From Candidatus Fibrimonadaceae bacterium (GTDB lineage: Bacteria; Fibrobacterota; Fibrobacteria; Fibrobacterales; Fibrobacteraceae): DNA of 64,000 bases. Under the pieces are notes generated by a model, which was not told where the DNA came from, made no database searches, and was given only the letters and a program-made list of their open reading frames with translations. The DNA is taken from positions 1 to 64,000 of the forward strand of contig JAITFN010000025.1 in NCBI GenBank assembly GCA_031281345.1. Reading direction: 5' to 3'. The translations under genes were made by a program, and so were the position numbers. Shown piece after piece: positions 31,844-43,961 of the stretch; the stretch's first letter is position 1, and each line of letters opens with the position of its first letter.

Positions 31844-32555
31844 AAACACCGAAGAACTTTTGGCTTGGGTTATAAATTTCTTTGCCGCAGAATTTGGCAA
31901 CAATGCAATAATCCGAGGCGGTATGGCTCTTAGGCTGCTCAACAGCCCGCGTTACACAAACGATATAGATTACGTATTTATTCCTTTCACTTCAAAAAAA
32001 GGATTAAAACCTCTGATTGAAAAAAAATTGTCAAATGTTCAAGGGCTTGATTTCAGCATAACATTAAATTCAAAAGTTATGGATATAAATATCAATTATC
32101 TTTCGCAATCTTGCCAAATAGAAATAAATGCAGAAACGGAATGTGAGTCTCTTGCAACATCTTCTTCGCCTATTGCATCTCTTTATGGAATGCCGTCTAA
32201 AATTGTCAGAATAGCAAATTTGCCTGCTGCATTTGCTCATAAAATTGCTGCGTGGAATGAGAGGGAGTTGCTCAGAGATTTGTTTGATATTTATCAATAT
32301 AAAGCGATTTTGAGGGTGGAACCAAATTTGGAAATTCTGCAAAAAAGGCTTGCGAAAGTTCGCACTTACAAAAATGCGAAACTTGCAAAAAATTTAAAAA
32401 CGTTAAAAGAGAAATTGCTTTTGGTAGCGAATGAGTTGGATGAACAGAAAATTCAGGAATTAAAGCCTTTGCTGCCAGAGTCAGAACTGGCAGGGCTTCA
32501 TTTGAGAATAGCAACAGCAATTAGGGGGATTTACGATTACCTATCCTTTTTTTAG
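31830..32555 (+). CDS. abiEii: AbiEii-like nucleotidyltransferase toxin
   Basis: 241 residues from the ATG at 31830 (AGAGGTG upstream), preferred over an in-frame start 60 nt earlier. The nucleotidyltransferase core is visible: IIRGGMALRLLNSPRYTNDIDY, with GG at 30-31 and Asp 45/47, then LRDLFDIYQY. AbiEii-type toxins transfer nucleotides, in some relatives to tRNA. The 3' end overlaps the convergent methyltransferase by 35 nt. The frame and active site are intact. Confidence 0.82.
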   Translation: MKNFRNTEELLAWVINFFAAEFGNNAIIRGGMALRLLNSPRYTNDIDYVFIPFTSKKGLKPLIEKKLSNVQGLDFSITLNSKVMDININYLSQSCQIEINAETECESLATSSSPIASLYGMPSKIVRIANLPAAFAHKIAAWNERELLRDLFDIYQYKAILRVEPNLEILQKRLAKVRTYKNAKLAKNLKTLKEKLLLVANELDEQKIQELKPLLPESELAGLHLRIATAIRGIYDYLSFF

Positions 32556-33243
32556 CAATGTCAAAATACTCTTTGCAAATTTCAAAACCTATAAAATTCC
32601 TATCTAATTTTTTGGCTACTACCCCTGTTGTTCCGCTACCCATAAAAGGGTCTAATACGGTTGCCTTTTTTTTACTTCCTAAAAGAAGAATACGTTCCAA
32701 AAGAGTTTCTGGCTTTTCCGCTGGATGCGTGGTCAAATGCCTAGCAGCAGGAATTTCCCAAAGATTCTTCATTTGTTTTCCGCCGTTTATCTCTTTTGCT
32801 TTATCATAATTGAAAAAATATTTTTTTGTTTTGCTTGCAAGCCAAATTAATTCGGTGGAAGGAGCAAACCTATTTCTTGACAAAAGGGGAGTTGCATTTC
32901 GTTTAAACCAAATAATATCGTTTATAATCCAAAAACCAAGTTCTTTTAATAAAACACCGATGCTTGGATGATTGTGCAAGGTTCCAGAAATCCAAATTGT
33001 TCCCGTACAGCTTAAAATTCTTTTACATTCTAAAAGCCATTTTCTATTAAATTCGTGTATGTCTTTCACAATATCCCATTCACCTTTGTTGCAAATTGCG
33101 GGTCTTCCATTTTTTACAGTCAAAAAATTTTCACCAGACAAATTGTAAGGTGGATCTGCAAATATCATATCCACAGAACTATCAGGAACCTTTTTTACGA
33201 GTTCAAGAAAATTGCCATACTTTAACGTTATGCTATTTTCCAT
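32521..33243 (-). CDS. Type II DNA methyltransferase M1 (beta class)
   Basis: 240 residues. The catalytic motif IV DPPY (30-33, in [10 protein letters not shown]) comes before the AdoMet motif [11 protein letters not shown] near the C-terminus, the order of beta-class N6-adenine/N4-cytosine methyltransferases. It is the third gene of the restriction operon and overlaps M2 by 16 nt. Together with M2 it probably protects the two different strands of an asymmetric recognition site. Confidence 0.9.
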
Positions 33244-34022
33244 CTCACCCTTTTTTCAGCAACACCTATATATTTTTCATTTTTCTCTATTCCAATCCAT
33301 TTTCTTTTCAATTTTTCAGCAACTGCACCTGTTGTTCCGCTACCAAAAAATGGATCTAGTACAATGTCATTTTCATTTGAAGATGCTTTAATGATTAATT
33401 CTAATAATTTCTCCGGTTTTTGTGTAGGATGTGCCGCTTTGCCGTCTTTTCCTTTTATTCTTTCTTTCCCTTGTACAATAGGAATTTCTATAAAATCCAA
33501 AAAATCTCGCATTTGTTTATTTGAGCCATCTTTTGTTTTATGCGGATTAAATTCTTTCACATCATTATAATTAAAAATCCAATTTTTACCCTTAACGAAC
33601 CAACATACAAATTCAGTAGAGTGCGTAAATGTACGTTTTGTAATATTTGGCATTGCGTTTATTTTATACCACGTTATTATGTTGTTTAATTTGAAGCCAT
33701 TTTTTTTTCCTATTGTTAAAATTTCTCCAATATTGTGCTGATTGCAGGAAATGTAAAGGCTTCCATTTTCTACCAAAACTCTTTTGCAAGACTTTACCCA
33801 ATTTTCGGTAAAATCTATATAATCTTCGTAGTTAAATATATCCCAATTTTCGTTGATTTTATAATATGCTCCGCCAGTCGTATTATTTGCTAAATTCAAA
33901 GTATTTCCCGATAAATTATAAGGCGGGTCTGCAAAAATTAAATTTACAGAATTTTTTGCAATATCATTTTCTAAAACTTCAATGCAATTTCCGTGAAAAA
34001 TTTTTCCTAAACAATTAGGCAT
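33228..34022 (-). CDS. Type II DNA methyltransferase M2 (beta class)
   Basis: 264 residues. DPPY at 32-35 ([10 protein letters not shown]), then [15 protein letters not shown] and [12 protein letters not shown], the same order and overall plan as M1 but clearly diverged in the central target-recognition region. It overlaps the restriction-enzyme gene by 8 nt and M1 by 16 nt. Confidence 0.9.
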
Positions 34023-35790
34023 AAATTGTTTCCTCCCACTTTTTTATTGTACTTGGAATTTGAGCGAGCCAATCATCGGATTTTTGAACTGTTTCTGTAA
34101 TTCCAATAACGGCATCGAATAATTCTAATAGCTTTTTGTGAGAAAAAGCCTTATTTTGTTGTTTTATTTTCAAAAGAATTTGTAAAATCTCAACAAATTG
34201 AGAAATCTTTAGCGGAATAATTTTCTGTCTTTTACCTTTGTATTCATATTTTGTAGAAATCCAAAAAGTATTTATTGTGTCTTCGTGGATTGTTGGAGCT
34301 ATAAATAAACAATAATTCGATTCATTGTTGCTTCTTATTTCAAAATCTCTAAAATGCCTCATAACTGGCTGTCCTTCGTTGAACCACTGAGAACGATCTC
34401 TCAAAAGGGTAACTTCACAAATAGAATTAAATGTTTCGTAAAAACATTCTATGTCCGGTTTATTTGCTGGTGCGGTAAAACTCGGTAAATTGTCATCGCC
34501 AACGGGATAATTTGGTTTTATTTCCAATGCATCATTTAGTGCGTGCAATCCATTGGTTATTAATCTTTCTAATTCAATAGGTTTTTTATCTTTCAATTTG
34601 AAAATATTTTGTAAACCTTTCACGCAATCCTCTATATTACTTAATTCTTGAAGTTCATAATGTGTTTTTAAATCCGACAATTTTCTTTTATATGTTCGCA
34701 GATTTTCAATATCATTATTTTGTTCATAGGATGGTAATTCTATTCTTTTGCTTTGTAAATCTTGCTCTGTTTCCTTTATATCTTTTTGCAATAACCTTAT
34801 TATATCATTTTGTTTGGCTTCTGTTTCCCAAGGCATTTTCTGCGATTTTATATCCCCTAAATATTTTATATAATCTTCTTTGGAATTAAATATCATTGCA
34901 GAAGCATTATCCTGTTCCAAAATGGAATCAATCTCTATCTGTCTGCGAGGTTCCAAGTCTATGTAAAAATCGTTTCCTCTTAAATAAAAATATCTTGTCA
35001 ATCTAAAATACCTAATTATATTGTCTGTATAATCTTTTGCATTTTTCCAAGAATCAAAATTTGGATAATATTTATTGAAATAATTTTCTGCAAAATCTGC
35101 CTTTTCTGCTTTGCTGATTCCTGTTTCATATTTTAATCTAAAAGAAAGAATTTTTTCTGCTACATCATCTATGTTTTTATAATTTGAAAGCGTTGTAAAG
35201 AATATGGCAAATTCTGTTCTAGAAACGCCTTTTTCTTTTAAATTTTCTCTAATGCAAATTTTATTTACCTTTTTAATTAAATGAAACGTGGCAACCAGAG
35301 GCTTGATGTTGTAGCCATCTTTTCCCAAATAGTCATCTGAATCTGGATTTGGATATTGCCACTTTAACAAACTTTTGAAAAATATATCCCCTAAATCGTA
35401 ATTTTCTGAAAGAAATAATTTTCCAAAATCAGTAATTTTAATTTTTTTGTCATTATCAGTAAAAATAAAACCAAGTTTTTTAAGTGGACTAAAAGACTGC
35501 CTTCCTCTCATTTCAGGGTCTTCATATGTTTTTGAATCAAAAATTTTCTCTGCCTGTTCATATGTCATATTCTCGCTACGCAACCACGAGTTCTGTTCTT
35601 CAGACAAGTTATTTTCAAACTGCTTAGTAAGGCCATAAACTTTTCTTTGTATTAACAATACTTGGAATTTTTTTTGTGTTTCCTTATTCCAAATTTCAAA
35701 CTCTAATTCTTTCAAAACTAATAAAAATGCTCTTATACGCTCTGGTGAGCGAAGAGCTGTAGAAATAGACCATAAACGTATTTTTGTCAT
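34015..35790 (-). CDS. AlwI-family type IIS restriction endonuclease
   Basis: 591 residues from the ATG at 35790; a longer frame to 35874 exists but a TATATT element 7 nt upstream and the family N-terminus ([20 protein letters not shown]) support this start. The first ~250 residues are the DNA-recognition part; the nuclease core includes [19 protein letters not shown] (Asp about 448, Glu about 461) followed by [10 protein letters not shown], as in AlwI-type enzymes. Known relatives cut a few bases outside 5-bp asymmetric sites such as GGATC or GAGTC; the site here cannot be read from sequence. Two adjacent methyltransferases fit such a target. The codons are very AT-rich. Confidence 0.82.
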
Positions 35791-35797
35791 AAAGAAA

Positions 35798-35803
35798 AAT
35801 ATA
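35798..35803 (-). promoter_or_regulatory. Putative -10 element of the restriction-modification operon
   Basis: TTTC-TATATT on the minus strand, 7 nt before the endonuclease ATG, in the 37-nt gap after herA. Confidence 0.55.
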
Positions 35804-35827
35804 GAAATATTCGTTAAATTAAATTTT

Positions 35828-37696
35828 CTAAAAAGGAAGCTCTCCCATTTCATCTGATTTCCATAACTCATCAAGATTTACAGTTTCACTTTGAGGTCTC
35901 TGTTCTTTATCCAACAATAAAACTTTAACTGACAATGGAAACTGAGTCAATTGTCCTGCTATAAAACAACAACCTACAGATAAATTAGCTATGGAATCAA
36001 AAGATAATTTGTCTAAATAACTAACAGCCCTATTTATCGCTTTTAAATCATTTTCATTCATTAATTTATGAATAAAATAATTATGTAATTGTGAAATAAT
36101 TGTTGATGAAATATCAGATGGTCTTTGGCTTGCTACTGTTAGAAATACTCCAAATTTTCTCCCCTCCTTTACAATTTCTTCAAAGGTTTCTAAACGATAA
36201 TCTTTCCAAGTTTCTGATTCTCGAACTGAATTTTCTGATAAAATATTATGAGCCTCATCTATAACAATGTGTAAAGAGGAATCTTTGTTATATTTATCTC
36301 TATGCTCTTCATATTGTTTTTTTAAAATAATTAAAGGTAACGTTTTCTTTATACTTTGGTTAGTCAACTTCATATCTATTACAACTATATTGTCATCTTT
36401 AAAAATATCGTCACTTATATTAACATCAGTAGTGAATACTTTTTGTATATCTCTCTTAATGCTTTCCAACCTAGCAATGCAAGGATAAATATGGTCATTT
36501 TGAACTCTATTGTCTAATAAATCATATAGTAATTGTAATTTCAAAAAATCTAAAAATTTATCTATGACATTACTAGGAAAATTATAATCATTCGCGTTTA
36601 TATATATAGATTGACTTTTATATTGTTCATCTGTTATACTTTCATATTCAGTATCTCCTCCACATTGAAAATAACTGTATTTATTGTGCCATTCAGGAAT
36701 AATAATATCATCATCAATTTTAAGTATTTGTTTATATCTATCTATACATAGAAAAGCTAAATTTTTTTCTTTCAATTTTAATATTCTTAGTACTAATTGT
36801 CTTAAATTATTTTTGAAATATTCTAAACCGTCTTTTTCCTTAGAAATTTTCTTATATAAATTTATCGCACGATTTAAAAATGGTTTTTGAGTTTTTTCTG
36901 TTGCATTAGATAAAATTGTCAGTAGTTCTATATCTATAAAACTATTCTCTGCTATTGGAACTTTAGAATAAGAATAATGATCTTCTAATGGTCTATTTGT
37001 TGATAATTTATATACTCTTTTATTTACTGTTAACGTTTTTTCTCCTGAATATTCACTGTTGAAATCTATGAATATAAATTTAGATTTTTTTGCAGAATTT
37101 TCAATAAAGTTTTCTAGCTTAAATAATTCTGCGTACATTTTTGCAAGAGTATTAGATTTTCCAGATCCTGTATTTCCAAAAATACCAATATGACCTGTGA
37201 ACAATTTATTTGCTGACAGATTTATTTGTTGGGTTTCTTCATCGCTTAATACCCCCAATTTTATTGTTAATTCATTTTCTGAAGATAATTTATGAAGTTT
37301 TTCAAATTCTTCTTTTGAAAGTAATTCACATTCACTTCCTATTAATGGCATTTCTTTTATGCCGTGTTGAAATCTATGATTGTAATCATAAAAACCAAAA
37401 ATCGTAACATTTAAGTACCTATTTATTTTTTGTTTTTCACTAGCATACTCTTTGCTTGTGTGAATTTTGTCTTCATTTATATATTCTCCTTCTACTTTAC
37501 AAATTATTTCCGTAAACCCTTTTAATATTTTTACATAATTAGAAAGACCCACCGATACATTTTTTACTAATTTTCCATAGAAAAATAAATGCGGCAAATT
37601 TTTATCTTTATCTACTCGAATTTTTATATTCTTACCATCAACACTAGAAACTATTCCTATTGAAAATATGGATTTTTTTAATAACTCATTTCGCAT
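35828..37696 (-). CDS. herA: HerA-like DNA translocase of a SIR2-HerA system
   Basis: 622 residues. An N-terminal HAS-barrel-like region precedes the P-loop GNTGSGKSN (174-182); Walker B is LHIVIDEAHN, and a sensor-like ASQRPSDISSTI motif follows, as in HerA/FtsK-type hexameric ATPases. The ATG overlaps the stop of the SIR2 gene by one base. Paired SIR2 and HerA proteins form a known anti-phage complex in which SIR2 acts as an NADase or nuclease. Strongly AT-rich codons suggest horizontal gain. Confidence 0.87.
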   Translation of the reverse strand: MRNELLKKSIFSIGIVSSVDGKNIKIRVDKDKNLPHLFFYGKLVKNVSVGLSNYVKILKGFTEIICKVEGEYINEDKIHTSKEYASEKQKINRYLNVTIFGFYDYNHRFQHGIKEMPLIGSECELLSKEEFEKLHKLSSENELTIKLGVLSDEETQQINLSANKLFTGHIGIFGNTGSGKSNTLAKMYAELFKLENFIENSAKKSKFIFIDFNSEYSGEKTLTVNKRVYKLSTNRPLEDHYSYSKVPIAENSFIDIELLTILSNATEKTQKPFLNRAINLYKKISKEKDGLEYFKNNLRQLVLRILKLKEKNLAFLCIDRYKQILKIDDDIIIPEWHNKYSYFQCGGDTEYESITDEQYKSQSIYINANDYNFPSNVIDKFLDFLKLQLLYDLLDNRVQNDHIYPCIARLESIKRDIQKVFTTDVNISDDIFKDDNIVVIDMKLTNQSIKKTLPLIILKKQYEEHRDKYNKDSSLHIVIDEAHNILSENSVRESETWKDYRLETFEEIVKEGRKFGVFLTVASQRPSDISSTIISQLHNYFIHKLMNENDLKAINRAVSYLDKLSFDSIANLSVGCCFIAGQLTQFPLSVKVLLLDKEQRPQSETVNLDELWKSDEMGELPF

Positions 37697-38685
37697 TATT
37701 TTTTACCATATCCTTCATCATTTTCATTTGAAATTACATCTTTCATATATTTTATTTGCTTATCAAAAGAAAATTTATCGTTACAATGTGATCCTTCGTC
37801 TGATTTATCAATTATGTATAGATTTAAATATTTTTTCTCCGTTAAATTATCATTAATATCATCATAATTTTCATAAGAAAAATAAATTACCATAAGAGTA
37901 GGATTGGATTCCATTGCACTATATAAAAGATCTTTTATATGTTTATCATTAAGTGAAAATCCAAATATTAACAAAAGACTATTTTCTTTTTCTAATTCTA
38001 ATGTAAATTTTCTCAATAAAGCAGCGTAATTTACATCAAGAACTGTTGCTAAATGTTTCTTGGCATTTGGATTAATTATTGCAATTTTGTTATAATCTGA
38101 AAAATTAGAAATATGTTGACCTTTAGAATAAATTATATTATTATCTTGTTCTAACCAAGAAACAGAACCATGAATTTTTATAATATTAAAAGTAGGAATA
38201 TCCGATATATTATCAAACTGTAAACTTTTATATTTTTGAATGATATTAAAGTTCGCAACATCAAACTTCGGTTTTATCTTCCCTATAAATCCATCATTAT
38301 ATGAAATTTCTAGCCTTTCACAAGAATCTTCTAAAAACATATCAAAATTTGTTGTGAAAATATTTACTTGTTTGTTAACAATATGCAACCTTCTTTTAGA
38401 AATGACTTCATTCCAAAAACCTAAAAAATCATCGTAATCATTTTTTGTTTTTTGTAAAATATCTTTATCCTGTATTTGTTCAATTTCTTCCAAAACCGCT
38501 AACGATTTTATTATTATTTTAAAGTACTCTTTTTTTGCTTTTTCACATTCATTTTCGTTATTCATTCTCTGTTCTATATCGTTTAATGTGGATAAATAAC
38601 TAGAAGAACAACCACTACCTATAAGAAGATTTATATGCCCACTTTGAATGATTTCTTTAAATACTTTATTAGATAATGTTTTCAT
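37696..38685 (-). CDS. SIR2-domain defence effector
   Basis: 329 residues. SIR2 motifs: LLIGSGCSSSYL (20-31), TTNFD with the catalytic-type Asn at 113, IIKIHGSVSW with His 172, and LLIFGFSLNDKHIKDLL near the C-terminus, as in SIR2_2-type effectors that degrade NAD+ during infection. No separate sensor domain is evident. It is directly coupled to herA. Confidence 0.85.
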   Translation of the reverse strand: MKTLSNKVFKEIIQSGHINLLIGSGCSSSYLSTLNDIEQRMNNENECEKAKKEYFKIIIKSLAVLEEIEQIQDKDILQKTKNDYDDFLGFWNEVISKRRLHIVNKQVNIFTTNFDMFLEDSCERLEISYNDGFIGKIKPKFDVANFNIIQKYKSLQFDNISDIPTFNIIKIHGSVSWLEQDNNIIYSKGQHISNFSDYNKIAIINPNAKKHLATVLDVNYAALLRKFTLELEKENSLLLIFGFSLNDKHIKDLLYSAMESNPTLMVIYFSYENYDDINDNLTEKKYLNLYIIDKSDEGSHCNDKFSFDKQIKYMKDVISNENDEGYGKK

Positions 38686-41732: not shown

Positions 41733-41816
41733 AAAATTCACTTTTTTTAGATTTTTTTATTTTTTTTGGCATTTTTTGCCGTTTTCTCCGTCTAAGTAAA
41801 TAGACAAGGAGAAAAT

Positions 41817-43961
41817 ATGGCTGAGACACATCTTTTACACGGTTTGAATACCGAACAAAAACAAGCGGTTTTGCATTCACATGCAGAGGAAGGGCCTTTG
41901 CTCATTTTGGCAGGGGCAGGTTCTGGGAAAACTTCAGTTTTAACAAAGAGAATTCTGTATCGAATTGAGCAGGGGGTGAATTCTGCAAATATTTTGGCAT
42001 TGACATTCACGGCAAAAGCTGCTGGGGAAATGGATGAGAGGGTAAAGGAATTAGCACCGGATTCCAAAGCCTTGCTCTGCACATTTCACTCACTTGCCCT
42101 TAGAATTTTGAAAATGCAGATTCAGGGCGTTGAAAATTGGAAACGTATGGGCTTCCAAAAAATTCCTATGCCAAAGGAGCAAAGCGATTTTGAATTTCAA
42201 GACTGGCTTATGGAACTGAACATAAAGGCAGGTAGCGTAAATAGGGAAAACCTGTTTTGCCCAGAATTAAAACTAGGCAAAGAGAAATTGGAAAAATTGA
42301 GGCAAAACGTGCTTAAAAGTGCGGAAATAGTTTTTGAGGATTTAATTTGGCTTTCAATTCGCTTGTTATCTGAGTTTAGAGAAGTTAGAGAGTATTGCCA
42401 AAATATGTGGAACGAAATTTTAATAGACGAATACCAAGATATAAACCCTTCGCAATACAGGCTTGTGCGGGCAATTTTGGGAAACAGCAAAAACCTCTTT
42501 GCTGTGGGCGATGACGACCAAGCAATTTATGGGTTTAGAGGTGCGGATATCGGAAACATTTTGAGATTTCAAAAAGATTTTCCAAATTGCAAGGTTTTGA
42601 AACTGGAATGGAACTACCGCAGCACCGCTAATATTTTAGAGGCGGCAAACAGAATTTTCACAGACAAACCTCTTGCTTTTAGAAAAAATCTAAGAGCAGG
42701 GGCATTGCGCCCTTACACTCTTTTCAAGGAAAACAGAAAACCAGAAATTTTGGTTTCGCAAACGGCAGAAGAGGAAATTTTAAAACTGGTTTATGAGATT
42801 AAATTTTTAAAAGAGGAATACTCAATGAAATGGAGCGATTTTGCCCTGCTTTCCCGCTATAACCGCCAATGCGAGTATTATGAGCTTGCGTTAAAGGATT
42901 GCAAAATTCCGGTTATTGAAGATGAATCCCCAGAGGATTTTGACGGTGTGCATATAGAGACCATTCACGCCTCAAAAGGGCTTCAATATCCGGTTGTTTT
43001 TTATTGCAGCCTTGCCGAGAGTTTAAGCCCTGGGGAATTACCGGAAAATCCCAAGGAGAGAAAAAAGCAACTTGGTGAAGAAAAGCGGCTTTTTTATGTT
43101 GGGGTAACGAGGGCAGAGGCTCATATATATTTTTTATATTGCAAGCAGAGGTATTTTAAAGGCAAGCTAAAAAATTTCAAGGCTTCCCGTTTTTTAAAAT
43201 ATTGCGAAGAGAGAAAACCAAAAAAAGGAATAGCAATGCCAGTTTTGATTTTTAAAATTATCACTGTGGTTAAAGTCATAAGCTATATGCTTTACCATAT
43301 TCCAATATACTTTTTTGAAAAAATTTTCAGAGCCAGCACCGCAGATACGTGGTTGCAGGAAAAACTTTTGAATTGGGCAAAATTCTGCCTTAAAACTTTG
43401 CGAATTGATTTAAATGTTAGCAGTCAATATAATTTGGCAAAGGTGGATTGGAGCCGCCCAGTTATTGCGATTGCAAACCACAATTCGTATGCAGATATTC
43501 CCGTTATTTTAACTTCTGCGCAAAGGCCGCTTGGATTTTTGGCAAAAGTAGAGTTATCACGAATTCCAGTTTTGTCTTATTGGATGAGAAAAATAGGTTG
43601 CATTTTTATTAAAAGACAGTCCAAAAAAGCTGGGCAAAAATTTATGGATAAAATGCTCAATTATTCCGCTGCAAAACCACCTCAAATTGTGATTTTCCCA
43701 GAGGGAACGCGGAGCAAAACCGGAGAAATGGGAGCTTGGAAAAGCGGAGCATTTAGAATGGCAGTAGAGTTGAAAGCCACGATTTTGCCTATTGCGATAA
43801 AGGGAACAGCAGTTTCTTTTGAGAAGAAGAAAAGTTCAAAAAATATTTATGAAGTATCATCGCAAATTTTGGAACCTTTTGATGTTGCTCAGTGGGAAAA
43901 GGAGAACGGAAAGGAGATTGAGTATAAGGATTTGATGGCTAGGCTGAGGGAGCTTTATTAA
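41817..43961 (+). CDS. UvrD-like helicase fused to PlsC-type acyltransferase
   Basis: 714 residues, one uninterrupted frame with an AAGGAG site. Residues 1-473: short superfamily 1 helicase with Walker A GAGSGKTS (33-40), LTFTAKAAGEM, IDEYQDINPSQ, GDDDQAIYGFRGA, WNYRSTANIL, ETIHASKGLQYPVV and RLFYVGVTRAEAH; it is far shorter than UvrD (about 720) and lacks most of the 2B insert. Residues 474-714: 1-acylglycerol-3-phosphate acyltransferase with NHNSYADIPVI and FPEGTRSKTG. An internal ATG at 43236, preceded by AAAGGA, is in frame, so a separate acyltransferase is probably also made. Either the helicase stop was lost or this is a true fusion. Confidence 0.85.
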   Translation: MAETHLLHGLNTEQKQAVLHSHAEEGPLLILAGAGSGKTSVLTKRILYRIEQGVNSANILALTFTAKAAGEMDERVKELAPDSKALLCTFHSLALRILKMQIQGVENWKRMGFQKIPMPKEQSDFEFQDWLMELNIKAGSVNRENLFCPELKLGKEKLEKLRQNVLKSAEIVFEDLIWLSIRLLSEFREVREYCQNMWNEILIDEYQDINPSQYRLVRAILGNSKNLFAVGDDDQAIYGFRGADIGNILRFQKDFPNCKVLKLEWNYRSTANILEAANRIFTDKPLAFRKNLRAGALRPYTLFKENRKPEILVSQTAEEEILKLVYEIKFLKEEYSMKWSDFALLSRYNRQCEYYELALKDCKIPVIEDESPEDFDGVHIETIHASKGLQYPVVFYCSLAESLSPGELPENPKERKKQLGEEKRLFYVGVTRAEAHIYFLYCKQRYFKGKLKNFKASRFLKYCEERKPKKGIAMPVLIFKIITVVKVISYMLYHIPIYFFEKIFRASTADTWLQEKLLNWAKFCLKTLRIDLNVSSQYNLAKVDWSRPVIAIANHNSYADIPVILTSAQRPLGFLAKVELSRIPVLSYWMRKIGCIFIKRQSKKAGQKFMDKMLNYSAAKPPQIVIFPEGTRSKTGEMGAWKSGAFRMAVELKATILPIAIKGTAVSFEKKKSSKNIYEVSSQILEPFDVAQWEKENGKEIEYKDLMARLRELY
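43236..43961 (+). CDS. plsC: Possible internal start: stand-alone PlsC acyltransferase
   Basis: From MPVLIFKIITVVKV the frame encodes 241 residues, the usual size of PlsC, with an N-terminal hydrophobic segment, NHNSYAD (HxxxxD box) and FPEGTRS. AAAAAAGGAA lies 6-7 nt before the ATG, a good ribosome site inside the helicase-acyltransferase frame. PlsC makes phosphatidic acid at the membrane. Confidence 0.55.
   Translation: MPVLIFKIITVVKVISYMLYHIPIYFFEKIFRASTADTWLQEKLLNWAKFCLKTLRIDLNVSSQYNLAKVDWSRPVIAIANHNSYADIPVILTSAQRPLGFLAKVELSRIPVLSYWMRKIGCIFIKRQSKKAGQKFMDKMLNYSAAKPPQIVIFPEGTRSKTGEMGAWKSGAFRMAVELKATILPIAIKGTAVSFEKKKSSKNIYEVSSQILEPFDVAQWEKENGKEIEYKDLMARLRELY

Follow-up and report, generated by a model that had tools for sequence, protein, structure and literature searches.

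Deletion of domain 2B lifts autoinhibition of the SF1A helicase Rep (PMC13238157), and the engineered Escherichia coli Rep-delta-2B has been reported to be active and faster than the wild type (PMC3720892). Mycoplasma pneumoniae PcrA-s (MPN340) is an active helicase, described as the first natural protein without the entire 2B domain (PMC3720892); 2B, the regulatory domain inserted in 2A that UvrD, PcrA, and Rep typically have, is thus dispensable for helicase activity in these two proteins, Rep-delta-2B and PcrA-s. Overlaps of 4 nt (-4) between neighboring genes typically mark translationally coupled pairs, and they are enriched among genes for complex subunits (PMC10666635). In the papers searched, we found no described helicase-acyltransferase fusion, no work on one in Fibrobacter, and no account connecting an SF1A helicase with PlsC. 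Here, we report a fused helicase-PlsC gene, kept throughout a family of the class Fibrobacteria, that probably gives two products: a membrane-anchored helicase-PlsC without domain 2B and a free PlsC.

The window (the whole stretch of DNA analyzed, 64,000 nucleotides) comes from a 2.56-Mb draft genome that is 84% complete and whose closest named relative, at 94% protein identity, is a Candidatus Fibrimonadaceae bacterium (Fibrobacterota, class Fibrobacteria). The labels used for families and genera (f1, g1, and so on) are internal to this analysis, and the window's own genus is g1. The fused gene is a single forward-strand frame of 714 codons with no internal stops (Table 1), and Pfam profiles match it as UvrD-helicase (4e-64), UvrD_C (8e-29), and Acyltransferase (8e-31). 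In an alignment of 39 diverse fusions, neither half varies at most of its key residues. An earlier note, made from the letters of the window, had placed a compact helicase and PlsC in one 714-residue frame with the key motifs of both intact, all of which is borne out here; it had also described most of 2B as missing, and while the loss stands, its extent is greater, as the domain is wholly gone.

Table 1. Positions in the window of the fused gene, its parts, and the likely defense island
Feature	Position	Strand	Basis or remark
Fused helicase-PlsC gene, 714 aa	41817..43961 (stop codon included)	+	Single open frame; Pfam
Shine-Dalgarno region of the full-length product, AAGGAGAAAAT ahead of ATG 41817	41806..41816	+	Sequence
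SF1A (UvrD/PcrA/Rep-like) helicase part, aa 1-461	41817..43199	+	1A, reduced 1B, 2A; 2B absent
Fast-evolving linker, from the end of domain 2A (SRFL, aa 457-460) to the PlsC start	43197..43235	+	Alignment of relatives
Internal Shine-Dalgarno AAGGA, 6-nt spacer to the internal start	43225..43229	+	Sequence
Putative internal start codon of PlsC, ATG (residue 474)	43236..43238	+	NTG kept in 68/68 fusions
PlsC/1-acylglycerol-3-phosphate acyltransferase part, 241 aa (residues 474-714)	43236..43961	+	Pfam, TIGR00530, motifs
SIR2-domain protein	37696-38685	-	Beside HerA
HerA ATPase	35828-37696	-	PADLOC HerA 8e-173
AlwI-type restriction/nicking endonuclease	34015-35874	-	Likely defense island
Two type II methyltransferases	32521-34022	-	Likely defense island

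The closest solved relatives of the helicase half are PcrA, UvrD, and Rep (PcrA 1pjr, E 2e-65; Rep 1uaa), which are also the top Foldseek matches and which share with it all SF1A motifs and the order 1A/1B/2A. Pfam and phmmer matches cover SF1 motifs I, II, III, IV, V, and VI (Walker A at aa 33-39, DEYQD at 204-208, III at 231-244, IV at 265-270, V at 382-391, and VI at 427-433). Residues 5-105, 157-365, and 370-461 align to residues 7-107, 176-377, and 551-639 of PcrA (1pjr), so that PcrA residues 378-550, the 2B domain, correspond to only about 4 residues and 2B is entirely absent. Relative to PcrA, UvrD, and Rep, the fused helicase also has a reduced (though retained) domain 1B, has no tail beyond SRFL (where both the helicase and domain 2A end), and carries PlsC at its C terminus. 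PcrA-s and Rep-delta-2B likewise miss the whole of 2B, by natural and engineered loss, respectively, and the likeness is one of that shared loss; neither has a lipid enzyme attached. The helicase scored below the cutoffs of the NCBIfam equivalogs for PcrA (321.8 bits against 911.2), Rep, and UvrD, and the host genome encodes another, larger, full-length UvrD-like helicase separate from the fusion. We predict that the helicase half is an active SF1A 3'-5' helicase/translocase core.

The second half has the PlsC motifs NHNSYAD (residues 554-560; HxxxxD) and FPEGTRS (627-633; EGTR), matches PF01553 at 107 bits against a cutoff of 23, and matches TIGR00530 (AGP_acyltrn) at 1e-28, with 99.4 bits just under the curated cutoff of 102.95. 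On these matches, it is a putative PlsC-type lysophosphatidic acid acyltransferase, presumably catalytic. By sequence, it matches PlsC 5kym in PDB, with which it shares the HxxxxD and FPEGTR motifs and the N-terminal helices ahead of the catalytic domain; it differs in carrying a helicase on its N terminus and, apparently, in being made from an internal start as well. An AlphaFold2 model of the fusion (39-row alignment; mean pLDDT, 86.8; pTM, 0.81), whose top fold matches were PcrA, UvrD, and Rep, places two long helices (476-504, hydrophobic, and 506-527) ahead of the catalytic domain of PlsC. Hydrophobicity over the entire fusion peaks at residues 471-489 (19-residue window; mean, 2.0), a segment consistent with membrane association. 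Most family genomes checked carry a second, stand-alone PlsC-like gene, so the fusion need not be the essential LPAAT.

The earlier note had proposed checking whether the fusion recurs within the phylum, and it does: it was present in 108 of the 111 genomes of the window's family and in 11 of 11 genera, never interrupted by a stop. Matches at E <= 1e-100 were obtained in 107 genomes, one of which (G025, where a contig end truncates the gene ahead of PlsC) was excluded from the fusion count, and two further fusions found at a looser threshold (G080 and G122) were each confirmed as one frame. A contig end also cuts the gene in G036, and G032 (98% complete) gave no match to the fusion. The best match in G032 to the DnaA of genus g10, where dnaA adjoins the fusion, was only 34% identical; because this neighbor too is poorly matched, it is probable that the assembly lacks the region, and a true loss was rejected. 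All three genomes without a complete fusion look like assembly gaps. A search of 57 further genomes of the phylum gave no fusion; the helicase stands alone there, mostly in frames of about 500 aa. At one of these loci (L051 in G037, family f2), a frame of 902 codons is open in GC-rich DNA, and the helicase match occupies its end.

Relatives in genus g15 of family f3 carry the helicase and PlsC as separate, overlapping genes (6/6 genomes), in the NTGA layout of translationally coupled -4 overlaps in five genomes and with a slightly longer overlap in one. Sequence resembling a Shine-Dalgarno (SD) lies ahead of PlsC in these pairs, and PlsC is always out of the helicase frame (offset +2), so loss of the stop alone would not fuse them. 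In the window's family, the two instead form a single frame that still contains the second start. An S4-domain RNA pseudouridine synthase gene overlaps the downstream end of the f3 g15 pair (L050:6202-6942 and L055:5692-6447), which suggests a three-gene operon of helicase, PlsC, and pseudouridine synthase there. The fused PlsCs make up a single group in the PlsC tree when set against the coupled and f3 g13 PlsCs (99/99, with one f5 row left unplaced among the fused ones), and all of these share a supported clade (100/99) that is distinct from the second PlsC carried by the same genomes. The helicase tree gives the family's rows as one clade (100/99) and groups f3 with f5. With f3 joining f5 there, and with the helicase and PlsC genes lying apart in f5 and in f2 (of the same order), no firm timing of pair formation follows. 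The f3 genes are relatives of the fusion rather than its actual ancestor. Rather than stop loss, we consider the probable origin of the fusion, and the simplest, to be a net frame-shifting indel that acted on a coupled pair. The earlier note had suggested a local readthrough fusion by loss of the helicase stop, which we reject, because the fusion is family-wide and its separate-gene relatives carry PlsC in a different frame. Separate adjacent genes with a stop between them, which would have pointed to an assembly or local event, do occur; they were found only outside the family, where they point to the ancestral state and not to a local artifact.

Neighborhoods of the fusion differ between genera, and the only constant link across them is helicase-PlsC itself; because the neighbors change, no conserved operon partner offers a clue to function. 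In g1 and g8, leuC lies upstream and pth downstream, while several genera have a glycosyltransferase-like gene (named from sequence only), a gene for an LPG_synthase_TM protein, and murI nearby. The dnaA gene adjoins the fusion in g6, g9, and g10 (L190, L191, L192, L193, and L203), a proximity to which we gave no weight as functional evidence; in G020 (L192), the fusion is inverted relative to dnaA. E. coli plsC may be linked to a partition mutant (parF), a link that likewise carries no weight here. On the reverse strand of the window, positions 32521-38685 form a likely defense island (Table 1).

Among relatives, the linker spans 10 to 29 codons, with all length differences in frame and stops never present. 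Some g2 fusions (L172, L174, and L175) have linkers of about 21 to 29 codons against the usual 10 to 13. The linker is the fastest-changing part of the protein, with 302 parsimony replacements across 33 alignment columns (maximum, 33 in one column), against means per column of 7.7 in the helicase core and 9.4 in the PlsC core. From a nonsense/missense ratio of 0.078 for linker codons, tolerated stops should number about 23, and none was observed (Poisson P of about 7e-11, a rough value that treats replacements as independent, the direction being clear). A linker that evolves this fast without a stop indicates that separation is selected against, and, judged from these alignments, the pattern says that cells of the family benefit from having both activities on one polypeptide.

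The codon at the PlsC boundary was ATG in 60 of 68 fusions, GTG in 3, and TTG in 2, all in the same column, and in the remaining 3 the start was displaced by exactly one codon (2 ATG and 1 GTG). Departures from ATG at this boundary were thus start codons in 8/8 cases, against NTG in only 13 of the 58 non-ATG codons at other Met columns (Fisher p, 4e-5 with the shifted starts counted and 0.03 without; rows are not independent). The internal SD had a genus-weighted energy of -6.16 kcal/mol, against -2.88 +/- 0.50 under synonymous shuffling (reached by 0/400 shuffles), and a comparison with the sequence ahead of other internal Met codons agreed, with the same caution that rows are not independent. 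By genus, the signal was significant or suggestive in most; in g1 it was modestly better than shuffled (16/400 shuffles reach it), in g8 no excess over synonymous shuffles was detectable, and in g2, the largest genus (40/68 fusions), it was not better than shuffled (-3.22 against -2.92). Because the SD is weak in g2, free PlsC may be only a minor product in that genus. The internal start appears to be an old signal that was retained. A separate start of PlsC at 43236, proposed earlier, is accordingly probable, given the NTG in all 68 fusions and an SD above shuffles overall; the further suggestion that PlsC is made only separately is contradicted, as no fusion seen has a stop between the halves.

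Joining of two genes by an assembly or sequencing artifact might be suspected in a draft as incomplete as that of the window, but about 100 independent assemblies share the fusion, including the single-contig genome G026 and named records, and we rejected this explanation, which such recurrence leaves scarcely credible. It is also very improbable that the helicase half is a GajB-like module of anti-phage Gabija and the fusion a defense protein. GajB profiles do match the helicase (1e-67), GajB chains are among its weak PDB matches, and a SIR2/HerA pair with a restriction system lies about 3 to 9 kb from the fusion in the window; however, PcrA, UvrD, and Rep far outscore GajB in the PDB search, and the gene occurs in nearly all family members, a housekeeping-like rather than patchy presence. 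No GajA OLD-family nuclease was found beside the fusion among the neighbors examined, those in the window being leuC, pth, an ABC ATPase, and others, and the defense identity was rejected on these grounds.

Two explanations accept the fusion and deny it either a joint function or a second product. Under one, the joining was a chance event that has been tolerated as a frozen accident, with the halves working independently. To our knowledge, no pathway connects an SF1A helicase and PlsC, the linker varies freely in sequence and length, and free PlsC is probably still produced, all as a tolerated accident would allow. Yet one point mutation in the linker would be enough to separate the two proteins, none of the roughly 23 stops expected was seen, and the joined state has been kept over 11 genera with shifting neighborhoods, where a tolerated accident should have reverted somewhere; we therefore hold this account to be somewhat unlikely, with the partial escape that the PlsC tail may have become necessary for helicase stability without joint function. 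Under the other, only the fusion is made and the internal ATG merely encodes a methionine that is conserved in the membrane helix of PlsC. Methionine is a chemically suitable residue for the start of a hydrophobic helix, the following proline is largely conserved as well, and the SD is weak in g2, but replacement of the ATG solely by GTG, TTG, or a start shifted by one codon, together with an SD stronger than synonymous shuffles across genera as a whole, makes this reading doubtful, and we rate it rather unlikely.

In the two-product reading that we prefer, ribosomes starting at the ATG at 41817 would make the 714-aa fusion (an SF1A core without 2B, a short linker, and PlsC), and those using the internal SD and the ATG at 43236 would make free PlsC. 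Through the hydrophobic helix at its N terminus, PlsC would hold the fusion at the cytoplasmic membrane, on the inner face, and the helicase would then be a membrane-tethered DNA motor. The family's ancestor would have had a coupled pair with a 4-nt NTGA overlap and PlsC out of frame, and a net frame-shifting indel would have merged the two frames; upon fusion, the helicase stop would have been lost and the plsC start and its SD retained. The fusion, its conservation across the family, the separate coupled genes of a related family, the kept start and SD, and the lack of stops are seen directly in the sequences; from these we infer the production of both products, the membrane tethering, the activity of each half, and the indel route. 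As to the benefit of joining, the likeliest class of answer is that it brings a lipid enzyme and a repair or replication-conflict helicase to one place or fixes their ratio. A more specific and tentative possibility, toward which we remain skeptical, is a dedicated membrane-bound DNA motor, in which an uninhibited SF1A helicase without 2B would be coupled allosterically or spatially to phosphatidic acid synthesis.

The coupling of DNA transactions to membrane synthesis is a long-standing question, and the fusion of these two well-known enzymes offers a genetic handle on that link. The gene is, besides, a clear example of overlapping genes that became one frame with the downstream start preserved, and its natural, widespread helicase without 2B can be used to test ideas on 2B autoinhibition. 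If the more tentative reading of a dedicated motor is true, membrane growth in the whole family would be tied by it to replication, repair, or the handling of the chromosome, and the proportion of tethered helicase to free lipid enzyme would be governed by the internal start.
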